A stretch of DNA of 5,517 bases. Origin: a bacterium. GTDB lineage: Bacteria; Bacillota; Bacilli; Lactobacillales; Streptococcaceae. The notes under the pieces were generated by a model. The model ran no database searches, was not told the DNA's origin, and worked only from the letters and a program-made list of their open reading frames with translations. The position numbers were made by a program, and so were the translations under genes. Each line of letters begins with the position of its first letter. Positions within the stretch are counted from its first letter, which is position 1. This document shows, piece after piece, positions 761 through 5,517 of this stretch. The stretch covers positions 1-5,517 of the forward strand of contig CAJNBW010000017.1 of the NCBI GenBank assembly GCA_905221105.1. The letters are read 5' to 3'.

Positions 761-796
761 AAAAAAGAAAAAAGCACCAAATTTTATTTGATGCTT
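760..796 (-). terminator. Intrinsic terminator of the lipoprotein gene
   Basis: Read on the - strand, AAGCATCAAAT-AAA-ATTTGGTGCTT forms an 11-bp stem (one G-U pair) followed by a T-rich tract (TTTTTTCTTTTTT, running from the stem base to about 761). It lies just after the lipoprotein stop at 804. On the + strand the same stem has a C-A mismatch and only a weak T stretch after it, so it works mainly for the - strand. Confidence 0.85.
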
Positions 797-803
797 AATT
801 TGT

Positions 804-1424
804 TTATTTGTCTTCTTTTATATTTTTACCATCTGCTTTATCAAAGTTTATTACATCTCCTTTAGAAACTTCGGTAATGAGGAAATAGTCAGAAGAGGCG
901 CTGTGAGAGGGTGAAAGATATCCGGCATAGTATTTATCACGAATTTGTCCACTAGCTAGAGATTCGTAAGTATTATATCCTAGTTCATTATTTTCGCGAA
1001 CAAATAATGTTATTTCTTCTTTTGTAGTGTTATTCCCTGATGAATCTGTTTTTACCTTGGCTGTAACTTTATCGATTTCAAAAGTTTCTTCGGATCTTTC
1101 TTCAGCTAATTTTCTAACTTCATTGATGTTTTTGCCTACAACTTCATCCATATGAAGCTCTACGGCTGCACCAACAGTTCCTCCACCTATTTTGTATCCT
1201 TTCAGTTTTCCGCCTTTTGTGATGTAGACGTGGTGTATCCTTTCATCTTTTCCAGGTAGACCATCATCATTAACATCTTGAAGATCATAGAAAACTCTCT
1301 CTTGATTGTCGTTCATTAACTGAGCGATACCTTTTCCTTTTGTATTCATAGATGATGAACAAGCTACTAAGCTAGTGCTAGCAAGTAGTACACCTAATAA
1401 TAACAATCCATTTCTTTTTTTCAT
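804..1424 (-). CDS. Plasmid-encoded lipoprotein with an EF-hand-like loop, unknown function
   Basis: This 206-residue protein has a clear lipoprotein signal: MKKRNG, a hydrophobic stretch (about 7-20) and lipobox LVAC with Cys22 as the lipidated residue. The mature part is hydrophilic and should sit on the outer face of the membrane. Residues 50-61 (DVNDDGLPGKDE) match a 12-residue calcium loop, with D1, N3, D5, G6 and E12 in place. The rest is not recognised. The start is supported by AGGAG (1431-1435) six bases upstream of ATG. It lies 87 bp after the RHH gene on the same strand but has its own extended -10 elements, so it may be transcribed both ways. A lipoprotein on a plasmid with a coupling ATPase could act in surface exclusion, mating contact or host fitness; that is inference from context only. 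Confidence 0.88.
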   Translation of the reverse strand: MKKRNGLLLLGVLLASTSLVACSSSMNTKGKGIAQLMNDNQERVFYDLQDVNDDGLPGKDERIHHVYITKGGKLKGYKIGGGTVGAAVELHMDEVVGKNINEVRKLAEERSEETFEIDKVTAKVKTDSSGNNTTKEEITLFVRENNELGYNTYESLASGQIRDKYYAGYLSPSHSASSDYFLITEVSKGDVINFDKADGKNIKEDK

Positions 1425-1442
1425 AAGAAACTCCTAAATATT

Positions 1443-1468
1443 ATTTATTTTATCAATTTATTTTATCA
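1443..1468 (-). promoter_or_regulatory. Tandem 13-bp repeat carrying two extended -10 boxes
   Basis: ATTTATTTTATCA occurs twice with no gap (1443-1455 and 1456-1468). On the - strand each copy reads TGATAAAATAAAT, which contains an extended -10 (TG-A-TAAAAT). The upstream copy sits at a suitable distance for transcription of the lipoprotein gene. A matching -35 is poor: CCAACA 17 bp upstream of the first copy gives 3 of 6 matches. The exact repeat may be a duplicated promoter core or paired sites for a regulator. Confidence 0.55.
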
Positions 1469-1511
1469 CATAAACATAGAATTGTTGGGAAAATAATGTT
1501 ATAAGTTTTTA

Positions 1512-1799
1512 TTATTTCCAAAACTTCCACCATTTTTTATTAGATGTTTCGATTAGCTTAGTATCACGATTATAGATGATTTGCTGAAGATTTGATATCT
1601 GCATATCTTTAGTTTTTAGCTGTTCTCTTAAAATATCGATGATATCGTTATTGATATCATTAATGATATCATCGTTTAAAACTCTTCTTTTGATAAACTC
1701 AGTCATAGATAAGTTTTCTTTATCTGCTTTTTCTGAGATAATATTTTTTTCCTCTGGTGTAACTCGCAACAAAAAACTTACTTGCTTGATTTTAGACAT
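1512..1799 (-). CDS. Ribbon-helix-helix DNA-binding protein with coiled coil and KWWKFWK tail
   Basis: This is a 95-residue basic protein. Residues 5-41 fit an Arc/CopG/MobC-type ribbon-helix-helix: a short strand (KQVSFLLRV), then TPEEKNIISEKADKENLSMTEFIKRRVL. Then comes an Asn/Asp/Ile repeat (42-56), a coiled-coil-like stretch (about 55-85) and a C-terminal NKKWWKFWK. Similar aromatic-basic tails end other small plasmid proteins of Gram-positive bacteria with a DNA-binding head and coiled coil (recalled, not checked). ATG at 1799 is preceded by AGAGGAG (1807-1813). Likely roles are a relaxosome accessory factor next to Rep, a partition or copy-control protein, or a repressor of this module; the family fold alone cannot decide. 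Confidence 0.85.
   Translation of the reverse strand: MSKIKQVSFLLRVTPEEKNIISEKADKENLSMTEFIKRRVLNDDIINDINNDIIDILREQLKTKDMQISNLQQIIYNRDTKLIETSNKKWWKFWK
1637..1676. repeat. 12-bp tandem repeat, each unit starting GATATC, inside the RHH gene
   Basis: GATATC recurs at 1641, 1653 and 1665, exactly 12 bp apart, so the units are 1641-1652, 1653-1664 and 1665-1676. The array contains a perfect 20-bp palindrome (1652-1671), and its ends CGATGATATC (1637-1646) and GATATCATCG (1665-1674) are exact inverted copies. It is in frame and encodes the degenerate four-residue repeat N/D-D-I-I/N. It may be simply a coding repeat or also a protein-binding site. Confidence 0.8.
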
Positions 1800-3002: not shown

Positions 3003-3031
3003 TTTACATACTTCTTAGAATGATGTAAAAT
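3003..3031 (+). promoter_or_regulatory. Candidate promoter of the rep operon
   Basis: TTTACA (3003-3008), a 17-bp spacer and TAAAAT (3026-3031) make a good promoter. Its start would fall near 3038, exactly at the base of a strong hairpin, which gives the mRNA a protected 5' end. TTTACAT (3003-3009) and ATGTAAA (3023-3029) are inverted copies overlapping both boxes, so the promoter may also be an operator. Confidence 0.55.
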
Positions 3032-3036
3032 AAAAA

Positions 3037-3067
3037 CATCTGCTGATCTTCGAACAATCAGCAGATG
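3037..3067. other. 11-bp hairpin at the 5' end of the rep leader; terminator-like on the - strand
   Basis: CATCTGCTGAT (3037-3047) pairs perfectly with ATCAGCAGATG (3057-3067) around the loop CTTCGAACA. On the + strand it would be the first structure of the rep mRNA. On the - strand it is followed by TTTTTATTTTA and would act as a second terminator behind the antisense RNA. Its loop holds TTCGAAC (3049-3055), repeated at 3120-3126. Confidence 0.75.
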
Positions 3068-3070
3068 AAT

Positions 3071-3108
3071 AAAAAAAGTCTTACTACGCCGCCAAGCACT
3101 CGTAAGAC
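3071..3108 (-). terminator. Intrinsic terminator of the antisense RNA
   Basis: On the - strand the stem GTCTTAC/GTAAGAC is followed at once by TTTTTTT (3077-3071). On the + strand the same hairpin is followed, seven bases later, by T6 (3116-3121), so it could also act as a weak attenuator of rep mRNA. Confidence 0.75.
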
Positions 3109-3127
3109 CCCAATATTTTTTCGAACT
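3071..3127 (-). ncRNA. Predicted antisense (counter-transcript) RNA controlling plasmid copy number
   Basis: A - strand promoter (3134-3162) places the start near A3127, and a hairpin followed by seven T residues ends it at about 3071, giving about 57 nt. The RNA has a single-stranded 5' tail containing GTTCGAA. Its hairpin has outer stem GTCTTAC/GTAAGAC (3078-3084 with 3102-3108), a small internal loop, inner stem GTGC/GCGT and a six-base loop TTGGCG (complement of 3090-3095). TTGG fits the YUNR U-turn found in fast-pairing antisense RNAs, and UUGGCG is the hexaloop I recall for IncB/IncI-alpha-type control RNAs. It is fully complementary to the leader made from 3003-3031 and lies upstream of rep, the usual place for copy control. 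The role is inferred; no transcript data were available. Confidence 0.75.
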
Positions 3128-3133
3128 AAGAAC

Positions 3134-3162
3134 AGTATATCACAATAGTACTAAGAGTGCAA
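3134..3162 (-). promoter_or_regulatory. Promoter of the antisense RNA
   Basis: On the - strand TTGCAC (3157-3162), a 17-bp spacer ending TGTGA and TATACT (3134-3139) give a strong promoter with an extended -10. No coding gene lies downstream on this strand before the terminator at 3071-3108. Confidence 0.8.
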
Positions 3163-3191
3163 TAGATGTAACTGTCATAAATATATTGGAG

Positions 3192-3249
3192 TGTCTTTTC
3201 TATAGTGTTTTGGTGTCGTAGTAGATAACAAAATATTATAGAAAGGACA
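3192..3249 (+). promoter_or_regulatory. Hairpin that buries the ribosome site of the 124-residue gene
   Basis: TGTCTTTTCTATA (3192-3204) pairs with TATAGAAAGGACA (3237-3249): 13 bp with one G-U, extendable outward by wobble pairs. The strand on the right holds GAAAGGA (3241-3247), the only ribosome site before ATG 3264. The 32-nt loop contains TTGGTGTCGTAGTA (3210-3223), which can pair with the leader hairpin at 3082-3095. This suggests translation is off unless the loop is engaged. Confidence 0.65.
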
Positions 3250-3263
3250 TTTTTTAATTTAAT

Positions 3264-3638
3264 ATGTCACAATTACAAAAACTCCAACAACTTGCAGAAA
3301 TGCAAAAGAACAAAAAAACTAGTAGTTTAACACTTTTTAAAGATTTAGTTTGTATCAATGTAGGAATTCCAGCGAAGCCTTATTTTTCTAAACTGAAGGA
3401 TGAATACGGAAATAAATTAAAGGATGATAAAGGAAATGATTTGCGTTCAGAACGAGCAACAGGAACACAAATTTCTCTTATTGAGTTTGGAACTGGAAAA
3501 AAAGTAACTGCGGTATTTACAAAGAATTTTGATTTAGAGTTATTGAAAGCTTACAAAATCAGTGGAGCAGGATATGATATCAAGAGCGGAAACATGTACT
3601 TTTTAGAAAAAGATTGTACGATTGCAAACTATGAATAA
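3264..3638 (+). CDS. 124-residue protein, first gene of the rep operon, unknown function
   Basis: I do not recognise this soluble protein. It begins with a Gln/Lys-rich helix (MSQLQKLQQLAEMQKNKK), followed by a compact, probably beta-rich domain with DEYGNKLKDDKGNDLRSERA in the middle and ISLIEFGTGKKVTAVFT as likely paired strands. There is no signal or membrane segment. Its place before the initiator and the coupling ATPase resembles the small DUF961-type genes ahead of orf21/orf20 in Tn916, but I see no clear sequence match. A single-strand-binding or replication-accessory role is plausible only from context. An in-frame TAA at 3255 fixes ATG 3264 as the first start. The ribosome site AAGGA (3243-3247) lies an unusual 16 bases away and inside a stable hairpin, so expression is probably weak or conditional. 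Confidence 0.85.
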   Translation: MSQLQKLQQLAEMQKNKKTSSLTLFKDLVCINVGIPAKPYFSKLKDEYGNKLKDDKGNDLRSERATGTQISLIEFGTGKKVTAVFTKNFDLELLKAYKISGAGYDIKSGNMYFLEKDCTIANYE

Positions 3639-3706: not shown

Positions 3707-3741
3707 AAATACAAGAATTGGAGGTGTAGAATGTCTACAAA
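3701..3741 (+). repeat. GTCTACAAA direct repeats and an inverted repeat over the rep start
   Basis: GTCTACAAA occurs at 3701-3709 (right arm of the origin hairpin) and 3733-3741 (codons 1-4 of rep), 32 bp apart. TGTAGA (3725-3730) and TCTACA (3734-3739) are exact inverted copies flanking the rep ATG. These could be Rep binding sites that also let Rep limit its own synthesis. GGAGG (3720-3724) is the rep ribosome site. Confidence 0.5.
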
Positions 3742-4825
3742 CCTTTATAAATCAATGGTTTACAAGGTCGATTGGTTGGCTATAACTATATCAGATTCTA
3801 TCGACCAAAATTCTGAAGAATTTGAGCTGTTACTTTTGGAAAATTTAGGTTATAAGATAAAAGAATTTGAGTCAATTCCTGGGCGATATTTTTATAATTC
3901 TGGTTTAAGTTTGGGTGGTTATGTAAATGTCTATTACAACGATATAAAAAAAGATGTTCATTGTAATTCATCGATGTCTAGGAATTATGTTTGGACAGGT
4001 CAGGGATGTACAGATTTAGCTCAAAAGATTGATAGTGATTGGAATAGTTTTTTTAAATTGTTGTTAGATTTAAAAGCTAAAATAACTCGTTTGGATTTGG
4101 CATTGGATGATTATAATGCTGTTGTTGATTTTGAAAAGATAGAACGTAAATTAAAAGCTGGCGACTATCGTTCATCTAAGAAAAGCTATAATGTTATCAA
4201 AGAAGCAGATGTCAATGGGGAAGTGAAAGGTCATACAATCTATTTGGGTTCTCGCTCGCGTTCGGCAAAAGGTTGCTATTTTATGCGTTGTTACGATAAG
4301 TACGCACAATACAAAAGTAAGGCTCAGATACCACCAGAGGAGGCGATAAAGACAGGCAAGTGGCAACGTTATGAAATATCTTATACAAAGAAAAAGGCAC
4401 ATAAAGTTGTAGAGGGCTTAGCTCTATATGGGCAATCAATTAGTTCAGTTTTTCAAGAGACAGCAAGAGATATTGTAGAATTTTTGCAACGTGATAAAAA
4501 TCAAAAAAATAAATCTCGTTGGAAAACGTGCAAATGGTGGGAAGATTTTCTTGATGGAGCTGAAAAAGCTAAATTGGGAGATCCCGAAAAAGATTTAGAT
4601 TTAGGTAGGATGTTGAGATGGATTCGTACTTCTGTTTTGCCTGCTATTCATTTGATGGATGATATTTTGCATGAAAAAGGATTTAATTTTTATGAATTGA
4701 TGAAAGAAACAGAAATAGGTGATTATTCTAAAAAACAAAAGAGATTGAAAAATAATGTTAAAGAAGTTAGTAAGGCGGATTTAATAAAACATCTTGAAAG
4801 ATTCAAGGAGGGGTATTATGGCTAA
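3731..4825 (+). CDS. rep: Rep_trans-family rolling-circle initiator / MobT-like relaxase
   Basis: This 364-residue protein belongs to the replication initiation factor (Rep_trans) family of pT181 RepC, Tn916 Orf20/MobT and ICEBs1 NicK, which cut one DNA strand at an origin and stay bound through a tyrosine. Visible motifs: an N-terminal strand VDWLAITI (13-20), ITRLDLALDD (118-127) with Asp122 and Asp126 as likely metal ligands, YLGSRSRS (171-178), RCYDK (186-190) with Tyr188 the best nucleophile candidate, and RYEI (213-216) with Glu215. The C-terminal third is basic and helical. I see no helix-turn-helix domain before the catalytic part, so it is closer to the short RepC-like layout. ATG 3731 follows GGAGG at 6 bp. 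The stop overlaps the ATPase start by 8 bp (ATGGCTAA), implying coupled translation. It probably serves vegetative replication and, with the ATPase, transfer. Confidence 0.93.
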   Translation: MSTNLYKSMVYKVDWLAITISDSIDQNSEEFELLLLENLGYKIKEFESIPGRYFYNSGLSLGGYVNVYYNDIKKDVHCNSSMSRNYVWTGQGCTDLAQKIDSDWNSFFKLLLDLKAKITRLDLALDDYNAVVDFEKIERKLKAGDYRSSKKSYNVIKEADVNGEVKGHTIYLGSRSRSAKGCYFMRCYDKYAQYKSKAQIPPEEAIKTGKWQRYEISYTKKKAHKVVEGLALYGQSISSVFQETARDIVEFLQRDKNQKNKSRWKTCKWWEDFLDGAEKAKLGDPEKDLDLGRMLRWIRTSVLPAIHLMDDILHEKGFNFYELMKETEIGDYSKKQKRLKNNVKEVSKADLIKHLERFKEGYYG

Positions 4826-5517
4826 AACGTATAAGAAAAATGCTCGAAATGTTTTTGCTATTCCTCTCTATGCTCGTATTTGGTTTTGGGAGCTTACTTT
4901 AATATTTTTAGCTAGTTTAACAACTAGCGGTTTTATTGTTGTATCGGTTTATTTAAAATCACCGATTTGGTTATTTTTGGCTTGTATAGTTTTATGGTTG
5001 CTGGTCGTTATCTTGTTCTCTATTCATGCTTATCTGCTGTTTCGAGGTATTTCAAAATCTGGAAGTTTGAAGACATATTTTGTAGAAAGTAGTTCTGAAA
5101 AGTCAGTGACGAAGTCTTTGCTTGCAACTATGTCTGTTAATCGTCTACAAGATACCCCGTATATTTCTGTTCCAGCCGTGAGGGTGGGCGTTAGCCTGCC
5201 CTCACATATAACGGTTGAAGTAGAGAAATTAGCTGGGATGTATGATATAGATAAATTGACAGAAGATATTGATTCAAGTTTTAGAGGTAAGTTAGGAGCC
5301 TATGCGGTTACGTCTAGTAGAATTACAGATGATGGTTTATTTTATAAATTTGTTTTAGAAGATAAGGGAACTGATAAAACTTGGCGACCAGCAACAGTTG
5401 AACTTATGAAGCAGAAATGTCATGAAATAAAGCTACAAAAAGGTTTAACTATTAATTTAGCTGATAGGCCTCACATTATAGCATGGGGAAAGTCGGGTTC
5501 TGGGAAAAGCAGCCTTA
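4818..5517 (+). CDS. FtsK/TcpA-type coupling ATPase, N-terminal part (continues at base 1)
   Basis: ATG 4818 lies five bases after AAGGAGGGG (4805-4813) and overlaps the end of rep. The frame is open to the window end and continues at base 1, where 5441-5517 repeats 1-77. Residues 1-24 are basic/aromatic and cytoplasmic. Two adjacent membrane helices follow (about 25-46, LTLIFLASLTTSGFIVVSVY; and 49-75, IWLFLACIVLWLLVVILFS), then a soluble linker domain (76-215) and Walker A at 224 (GKSGSGKSS, present here near 5487-5513). Two N-terminal helices, a linker and an FtsK motor are the layout of Tn916 Orf21-type coupling proteins. Linked directly to Rep, it probably receives the Rep-DNA complex and delivers it to a secretion channel. 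No channel genes are on the circle, so a resident conjugative element would have to supply one. A role in plasmid segregation cannot be excluded. Confidence 0.92.
   Translation, partial: MAKTYKKNARNVFAIPLYARIWFWELTLIFLASLTTSGFIVVSVYLKSPIWLFLACIVLWLLVVILFSIHAYLLFRGISKSGSLKTYFVESSSEKSVTKSLLATMSVNRLQDTPYISVPAVRVGVSLPSHITVEVEKLAGMYDIDKLTEDIDSSFRGKLGAYAVTSSRITDDGLFYKFVLEDKGTDKTWRPATVELMKQKCHEIKLQKGLTINLADRPHIIAWGKSGSGKSSL
5178..5205. other. GC-rich 12-bp hairpin inside the coupling ATPase gene
   Basis: GTGAGGGTGGGC (5178-5189) pairs with GCCTGCCCTCAC (5194-5205) through 12 bp (two G-T) around a GTTA loop. It stands out in AT-rich coding DNA. On the - strand the tip reads GGC-TAAC-GCC; CTAAC also appears, as I recall it, at the nick of ICEBs1-type oriT. 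It may be a second origin (oriT or single-strand origin) embedded in the gene, or a chance stem. Confidence 0.45.
5441..5517. repeat. Terminal direct repeat, right copy
   Basis: Identical to bases 1-77. It should be counted once when the circle is closed between 5440 and 1. Confidence 0.95.

Follow-up and report, generated by a model that had tools for sequence, protein, structure and literature searches.

Gene content of the plasmid

The window, by which we mean the whole 5,517-nt stretch of DNA analyzed here, is a circular contig in which bases 1-77 are the same as bases 5441-5517, giving a plasmid of 5,440 bp. Its operon on the plus strand starts with a gene at 3264-3638 (start ATG at 3264), encoding a protein of 124 amino acids, followed by a MobT-like Rep_trans initiator gene at 3731-4825 (PF02486; E of 1.1e-40), which has its own ribosome site, GGAGG, at 3720-3724. 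The family match of the initiator is to Rep_trans only and not to RepA_N, and its score against the NF041493 MobT model was far below the model cut-off. Among the other genes are an FtsK-like gene spanning the contig junction, a gene for a NikA-like protein, and further genes; we take this gene set to resemble the helP-conQ-nicK module of ICEBs1. The 124-aa protein had no match in Pfam at E 0.001 and no sequence match in PDB. Structure prediction gave a mostly beta fold (mean pLDDT of 89.7) whose fold matches were weak (none with E ≤0.001) and included OB-fold single-strand DNA-binding proteins, and the modeled protein may be a replication helper.

Leader anatomy and the predicted antisense RNA

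Upstream of the first gene, a predicted promoter of the leader RNA lies on the plus strand at 3003-3031 (TTTACA-17-TAAAAT, start near 3037). It scored 10 of 12 in a consensus scan that returned six promoters overall, with no excess over the shuffle mean of 5.9. The 5' end of the leader forms a hairpin (3037-3067) that is terminator-like on the minus strand; it was the single match of a terminator scan (shuffle mean of 0.1) and is probably the back-up terminator of a predicted antisense RNA. This RNA, about 57 nt long, would be read from the minus strand across 3071-3127 and would comprise a 5' tail, a hairpin (GTCTTAC..GTAAGAC), and an end of seven T residues. Its putative promoter has an extended -10 element, TGATATACT, at 3142-3134 (minus strand), with a weak -35 element, TTGCAC (three of six positions); TGn before a -10-like hexamer was present at this position in 11 of 13 leaders. 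The consensus scan did not list the antisense promoter, and its -35 criterion excludes such sites. The evidence for antisense transcription against the leader consists of promoter-like and terminator-like sites in the sequence.

On the plus strand, the leader is predicted to form a sensing hairpin (hairpin I, 3078-3108) in which GTCTTAC (3078-3084) pairs with GTAAGAC (3102-3108). Farther downstream, a long hairpin followed by a run of six T residues at 3250-3255 (hairpin II with its U run, 3190-3255) folds in all 14 leaders that we examined. A Shine-Dalgarno-like sequence, AGAAAGGA, is found at 3240-3247, 16 nt before the ATG at 3264; this spacing (3247-3264) is several nucleotides longer in the window than in its relatives.

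An earlier, sequence-only reading of this DNA proposed that a leader segment, 3082-3095 (TACTACGCCGCCAA), pairs with 3210-3223 (TTGGTGTCGTAGTA) in a long-range pseudoknot. The complementarity (pairing A) is exactly as described: in antiparallel orientation, it comprises 12 Watson-Crick pairs, one G-U pair (3091), and one C-T mismatch (3089). The leader segment does lie in and beside the loop, but 3082-3084 are part of the 5' arm of hairpin I, so that the pairing breaks the top of this hairpin; similarly, its partner occupies the loop of the ribosome-site hairpin, as claimed, and the upper stem as well. The earlier reading lacked two elements, the six T residues after the hairpin and a second pairing (pairing B) between 3104-3116 (AAGACCCCAATAT, the 3' arm of hairpin I plus its flank) and 3183-3197. 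With B included, the stretch 3181-3223 is an imperfect copy of the greater part of the predicted antisense RNA. We refer to it hereafter as the cis copy; it aligns with the leader's antisense strand across the tail (flank), stem arm, and loop, and the notion that the downstream segment mimics the antisense loop is thereby borne out and extended. Since A and B are nested, they make up one long duplex once hairpin I opens, and no pseudoknot is required.

Relatives of the leader

Relatives of the 124-aa gene were found in 20 of 72,556 plasmid records; 13 of these were read, and the other 7, which are lactococcal, were left out. A profile search returned 189 proteins, at least 120 of which sit on short contigs, many of 4 to 6 kb. 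We examined the leaders of the window and of 13 relatives: pSK11B, pUC047A, pUCCL635C, the Streptococcus suis 7617 plasmid, pQA518, pER1-2, pSMQ173b, Lactobacillus crispatus pLc4, contigs of S. infantis, S. pseudopneumoniae, and a Lachnoanaerobaculum, an L. kefiranofaciens plasmid, and G276 (S. infantis family). Thirteen leaders (the window and 12 relatives) were counted; pER1-2 (L006) was excluded from all pairing counts, as the 5' half of its hairpin I is replaced. In this plasmid, the sequence upstream of about position 729 (the middle of hairpin I) has been replaced, apparently by inversion, and half of its antisense target is lost; the basis for inversion is that the neighboring stretch lies on the opposite strand relative to pSMQ173b. 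One leader loop is common to the three lactococcal members and another to S. infantis and S. pseudopneumoniae; the swap tests described below used 11 representatives, with two of the three lactococcal leaders dropped. L009 and L016-L019 duplicate counted leaders, and L015 has no leader.

A genome scan with a single protein gave no match, and a scan with an alignment gave four loci, one of which (L013) was discarded. Matches to the first gene in whole genomes numbered 5 of 335, 1 of 397, and 3 of 395, with G276 as the only new and usable one; 3 of the 335 genomes matched in a Rep search at E 1e-40. Further searches of plasmid records found no additional record, and a search of viral contigs found no relatives. 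Six viral-contig hairpins were judged unrelated by eye, Rep matches in phage records (at most 27% identity) were set aside, and so were two weak chromosomal matches (L024 and L025). A second S. infantis family genome, G145 (L034), carries a rearranged remnant in which pieces matching window positions 780-1610, 1959-2021, and 3964-4204 lie close together, without a leader. In lactococci (L016), the module is found on plasmids of 9 to 62 kb, some with a second replicon, of the RepB type, and IS1216.

Hairpin II as a probable terminator and ribosome-site lock

Twelve of the 13 leaders preserve all of the outer 11 pairs of hairpin II, and pUC047A preserves 10 of them; two-sided changes are seen at three pairs. 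At least five T residues lie shortly upstream of the start codon in 12 of 13 leaders, compared to 1 of 23 control genes, the latter being plus-strand genes picked from the annotation of seven of these plasmids and not all of their genes. The terminator scan did not list hairpin II and found no plus-strand terminator; its loop limit excludes such hairpins. AGAAAGG or AGAGAGG lies within the hairpin II stem in 12 of 13 leaders, and in the Lachnoanaerobaculum leader the GGA is lost (AGAAAAG) and the stem and U run are retained. The ribosome site thus sits within the 3' half of a terminator-like hairpin before the start codon, an arrangement of the pT181 type. Judged from sequence and predicted folds, hairpin II likely doubles as an intrinsic terminator and a lock on the ribosome site.

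Could the same nested duplex instead serve a switch of translation only, in which the cis copy frees and the antisense RNA hides the ribosome site while transcription continues? Terminator stems are usually shorter than that of hairpin II, and the near-constant presence of the AGAAAGG/AGAGAGG motif in the stem would suit such a switch. pSK41 is described in these terms: its antisense RNA acts on the leader to induce a hairpin that hides the ribosome site, as we propose here, but transcription is described as not ending, and the initiator is of the RepA_N and not the Rep_trans family (PMC5703833). The contrast in U runs between leaders and control genes argues against control of translation only, as does the Lachnoanaerobaculum leader, which gave up its ribosome-site motif and kept the elements of a terminator. 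Furthermore, rep is the second gene and has its own ribosome site, so that hiding the first site alone would not directly control rep. Together with the absence of a conserved leader frame, these points make the translation-only control envisaged in the sequence-only reading doubtful, and we regard this alternative as unlikely, including in its pSK41-like form.

Complementarity between the leader and the cis copy

Pairing A alone is not rare, because 33 of 300 dinucleotide shuffles of 3037-3263 (227 nt) contained a 14-mer with at least 12 Watson-Crick pairs anywhere; an equally good 14-mer between the leader hairpin and the downstream loop was found in 0 of 2,000 shuffles. The energy of the leader:copy duplex was below that of all 1,000 shuffles in 11 of 13 leaders, the exceptions being L. 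kefiranofaciens (as low in 2 of 1,000) and Lachnoanaerobaculum (16 of 1,000). Loop-only pairing was equaled in at most 11 of 1,000 shuffles in 8 of 13 leaders and in 27 to 128 of 1,000 in the other five. RNAalifold applied to a MAFFT alignment of 12 leaders recovered hairpin I as the sole helix and did not recover the long duplex, support for which rests on alignment-free tests.

In such tests, leaders and copies were swapped among the 11 representatives, with kinship ignored in all permutations. The whole duplex reached -33.1 kcal/mol with its own partner and -21.8 kcal/mol with swapped ones (0 of 100,000 permutations, kinship ignored), and the own partner ranked first in eight rows and eight columns of the 11-by-11 matrix. 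With kinship likewise ignored, own and swapped partners gave -11.9 versus -7.4 kcal/mol for arms plus flanks (0 of 100,000) and -3.8 versus -2.6 for flanks only (334 of 100,000). For the loop segments only, the mean was -17.9 kcal/mol for own and -12.7 kcal/mol for swapped partners (1 of 100,000 permutations, kinship ignored), so that 3082-3095 and 3210-3223 change together, as the sequence-only reading would predict; counting against this, the own partner was best in just five rows and six columns of the matrix. Also counting against it is S. infantis, which has a leader loop in common with S. pseudopneumoniae and a poorer fit of the downstream loop (-14.0 versus -20.0). Arm sequences have changed in pLc4 and L. 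kefiranofaciens, on the 3' side of hairpin I as well as on the 5' side of hairpin II, and the match is retained. At the level of sequence, the complementarity is supported by the comparison of 13 leaders, the window and 12 relatives.

In plasmids of the IncI-alpha, IncB, and IncL/M groups, the leader and downstream loops are complementary and an antisense RNA competes for the contact; in such switches, translation of a leader reading frame opens the hairpin. The complementary loops are found here as well, and the sequence-only reading accordingly held that hairpin I stays closed while a loop-loop pseudoknot with hairpin II opens the ribosome site and controls translation only. The co-variation of the loop segments is consistent with this view, and the antisense loop of the window has UUGGCG, a motif named for ColIb-P9 in the title of a published paper; such a pseudoknot could also be a passing intermediate, since the folding programs used cannot score pseudoknots. 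However, the nesting of A and B makes it unnecessary, and if hairpin I remained closed, its 3' arm would not be expected to co-vary, as it does, with the 5' arm of the presumed terminator, hairpin II. In contrast to the Inc systems, this family has Gram-positive hosts, a possible nested duplex, and a U run after the hairpin (12 of 13 leaders), and a conserved leader frame is absent: no frame of at least four codons with a Shine-Dalgarno-like 4-mer was found in 11 of 13 leaders, with one each in pQA518 and L. kefiranofaciens. We therefore consider the pseudoknot model improbable. That the complementarity arose by chance or as a by-product of AT-rich inverted repeats, as the 12-of-14 matches in shuffled leaders might suggest, is scarcely credible given the whole-duplex permutations and the 11 leaders whose duplex no shuffle equaled.

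Folding course and decision point

Transcript folding was restricted to nested structures. When the window transcript was folded stepwise, the flank was paired and hairpin I intact at 3196, and hairpin I was open at 3209; the long duplex dominated from 3216 to 3244, and hairpins II and I won from 3248. As long as hairpin II lacked its 3' arm, the predicted structure was the leader:copy duplex in every one of the 13 leaders, with hairpin I open and 30.6 to 39.0 expected pairs. In full-length RNA, the duplex was outweighed by hairpin II in 12 of 13 leaders; pLc4 was mixed (18.6 duplex pairs and 10.7 hairpin II pairs). Shuffling of the downstream sequence shows that the pair number is specific and the opening of hairpin I is not, because the observed pair number was reached in 0 to 2 of 200 shuffles and hairpin I opened in 10 to 82 of 200.

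For 12 of 13 leaders, the changeover from the duplex to hairpin II came when 6 to 11 nt remained to the end of the U run, compared to 7 nt in both pT181 and pC221. This is approximately where RNA exits the polymerase hybrid. With 8, 9, 10, 11, and 12 nt of RNA hidden in the polymerase, the duplex was ahead in 7, 8, 10, 12, and 13 of 13 leaders, respectively, and in the window from 9 nt upward; at 10 nt, the S. suis, Lachnoanaerobaculum, and G276 leaders favored the terminator, and the S. infantis leader was level. When the leader was blocked, as it would be by antisense RNA, and 10 nt was hidden, hairpin II had at least 8 expected pairs in 12 of 13 leaders. The worst fit was pLc4, in which the changeover came 5 nt beyond the U run and just 2 terminator pairs formed under the same blocked condition. 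The energy of the terminated minus the antiterminated state ranged from -2.9 to -16.2 in this family, as against -5.9 in pT181 and -2.8 in pC221. Since hairpin II is thermodynamically favored at full length, the ON state must be kinetic. The predicted antisense RNA matches the leader perfectly, with a predicted energy of -92.8 kcal/mol, compared to -38.0 kcal/mol for the cis copy.

Comparison with pT181 and pC221

Work on pT181, a Rep_trans plasmid, describes control by an antisense RNA together with a pre-emptor; the terminator carries a likely ribosome site in its 3' half, at a distance of 12 nt from the start codon, and dual control was demonstrated with reporters (PMC5703833, PMC5435934, PMC4878617). 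The sequence-only reading had set ribosome-site hiding apart from the transcription attenuation of Rep_trans plasmids; this contrast falls away, as the pT181 terminator is itself said to hold the ribosome site (PMC5703833, PMC5435934). The plasmids studied here share with pT181 and pC221 the Rep_trans initiator, a sensing hairpin that would here be read by the predicted antisense RNA, the pre-emptor logic, a similar energy balance and changeover, a ribosome site in the 3' half of a terminator-like hairpin, and a T run just before the start codon.

The differences concern the parts that pair. The terminator of pT181 and pC221 is shorter, and its 5' arm and flank form pairs with the sensing hairpin's 5' arm and edges; of the antisense RNA, it is mainly the 3' arm that is copied, although a local alignment for pC221 runs weakly over the 5' half too. 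In contrast, the parts of the sensing hairpin predicted to pair in this family are the loop, the 3' arm, and the 3' flank, with the copy extending into the loop and upper stem of a longer, probable terminator. Prediction and co-variation point to a pre-emptor for the 5' arm of hairpin II that lies on the 3' side and in the loop of hairpin I. Given the possible weak antisense-like extension in pC221, the difference is one of degree and side. The attenuator also does not lie directly before rep, and since the 124-aa gene (3264-3638) intervenes, we describe the system as working like that of pT181 and do not assign it to the pT181 family. Control of this mode is already known, and what varies is the wiring, in which the antisense RNA has a nearly complete counterpart in cis.

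Sensing loops contain runs in common with these plasmids: AACCGACCAAAGTT (14 nt) is found in the S. suis plasmid (L004:5532-5564) and pC221 (L036:1029-1067), and CTGACCAAAGTT (12 nt) is found in L. kefiranofaciens and pT181. Shuffling the ten loops 500 times produced a single run of 12 and none of 14. The shared runs may reflect common descent or convergence among antisense loops, and cross-talk is possible.

Proposed mechanism and implications

We think it probable that the cis copy (3181-3223) serves as the antiterminator partner of an attenuator of the pT181 type, in which hiding of the ribosome site provides a second lock. Starting from the anatomy, co-variation, and fold energies described above, we infer antisense expression, termination, and the following order of steps. 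As RNA polymerase makes the leader in the absence of antisense RNA, the cis copy would first pair with the flank (3109-3116), then open hairpin I via its 3' arm, and finally take the loop (3082-3095), yielding one nested duplex. This duplex would occupy the 5' half of hairpin II as the polymerase crosses the U run, and thus, in this proposal, transcription would continue and the ribosome site would be free. Antisense RNA bound to the leader would leave the cis copy partnerless, hairpin II would form, and transcription would stop at 3250-3255; in any RNA that reads through under these conditions, the ribosome site would be hidden. The likely logic of the switch, already put forward by the sequence-only reading, is that antisense RNA and cis copy compete for the leader. 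Expression of the first gene would decrease along with that of rep and the FtsK-like gene, and we infer from this that the antisense level may set copy number.

More tentatively, this may be a widespread self-antisense attenuator in small Rep_trans plasmids of Streptococcaceae, Lactobacillaceae, and a Lachnoanaerobaculum, although we would not yet lean toward so broad a reading. The mRNA would carry a degenerate inverted copy of the antisense tail, arm, and loop, the copy's own terminator hairpin would have become the rep terminator and ribosome-site lock, and the cis copy and the trans original would race for one target; a possible origin is an inverted duplication of the end of the antisense gene.

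We found no study or description of control in this plasmid family in the open-licence papers searched. The pT181 attenuator is a staple of RNA engineering, and, if true, the model would extend it to another plasmid family, with a second way of wiring. Its natural members supply eleven distinct pairs for orthogonality tests, and the cis copy predicts that incompatibility and copy number would be readable from two co-varying segments.
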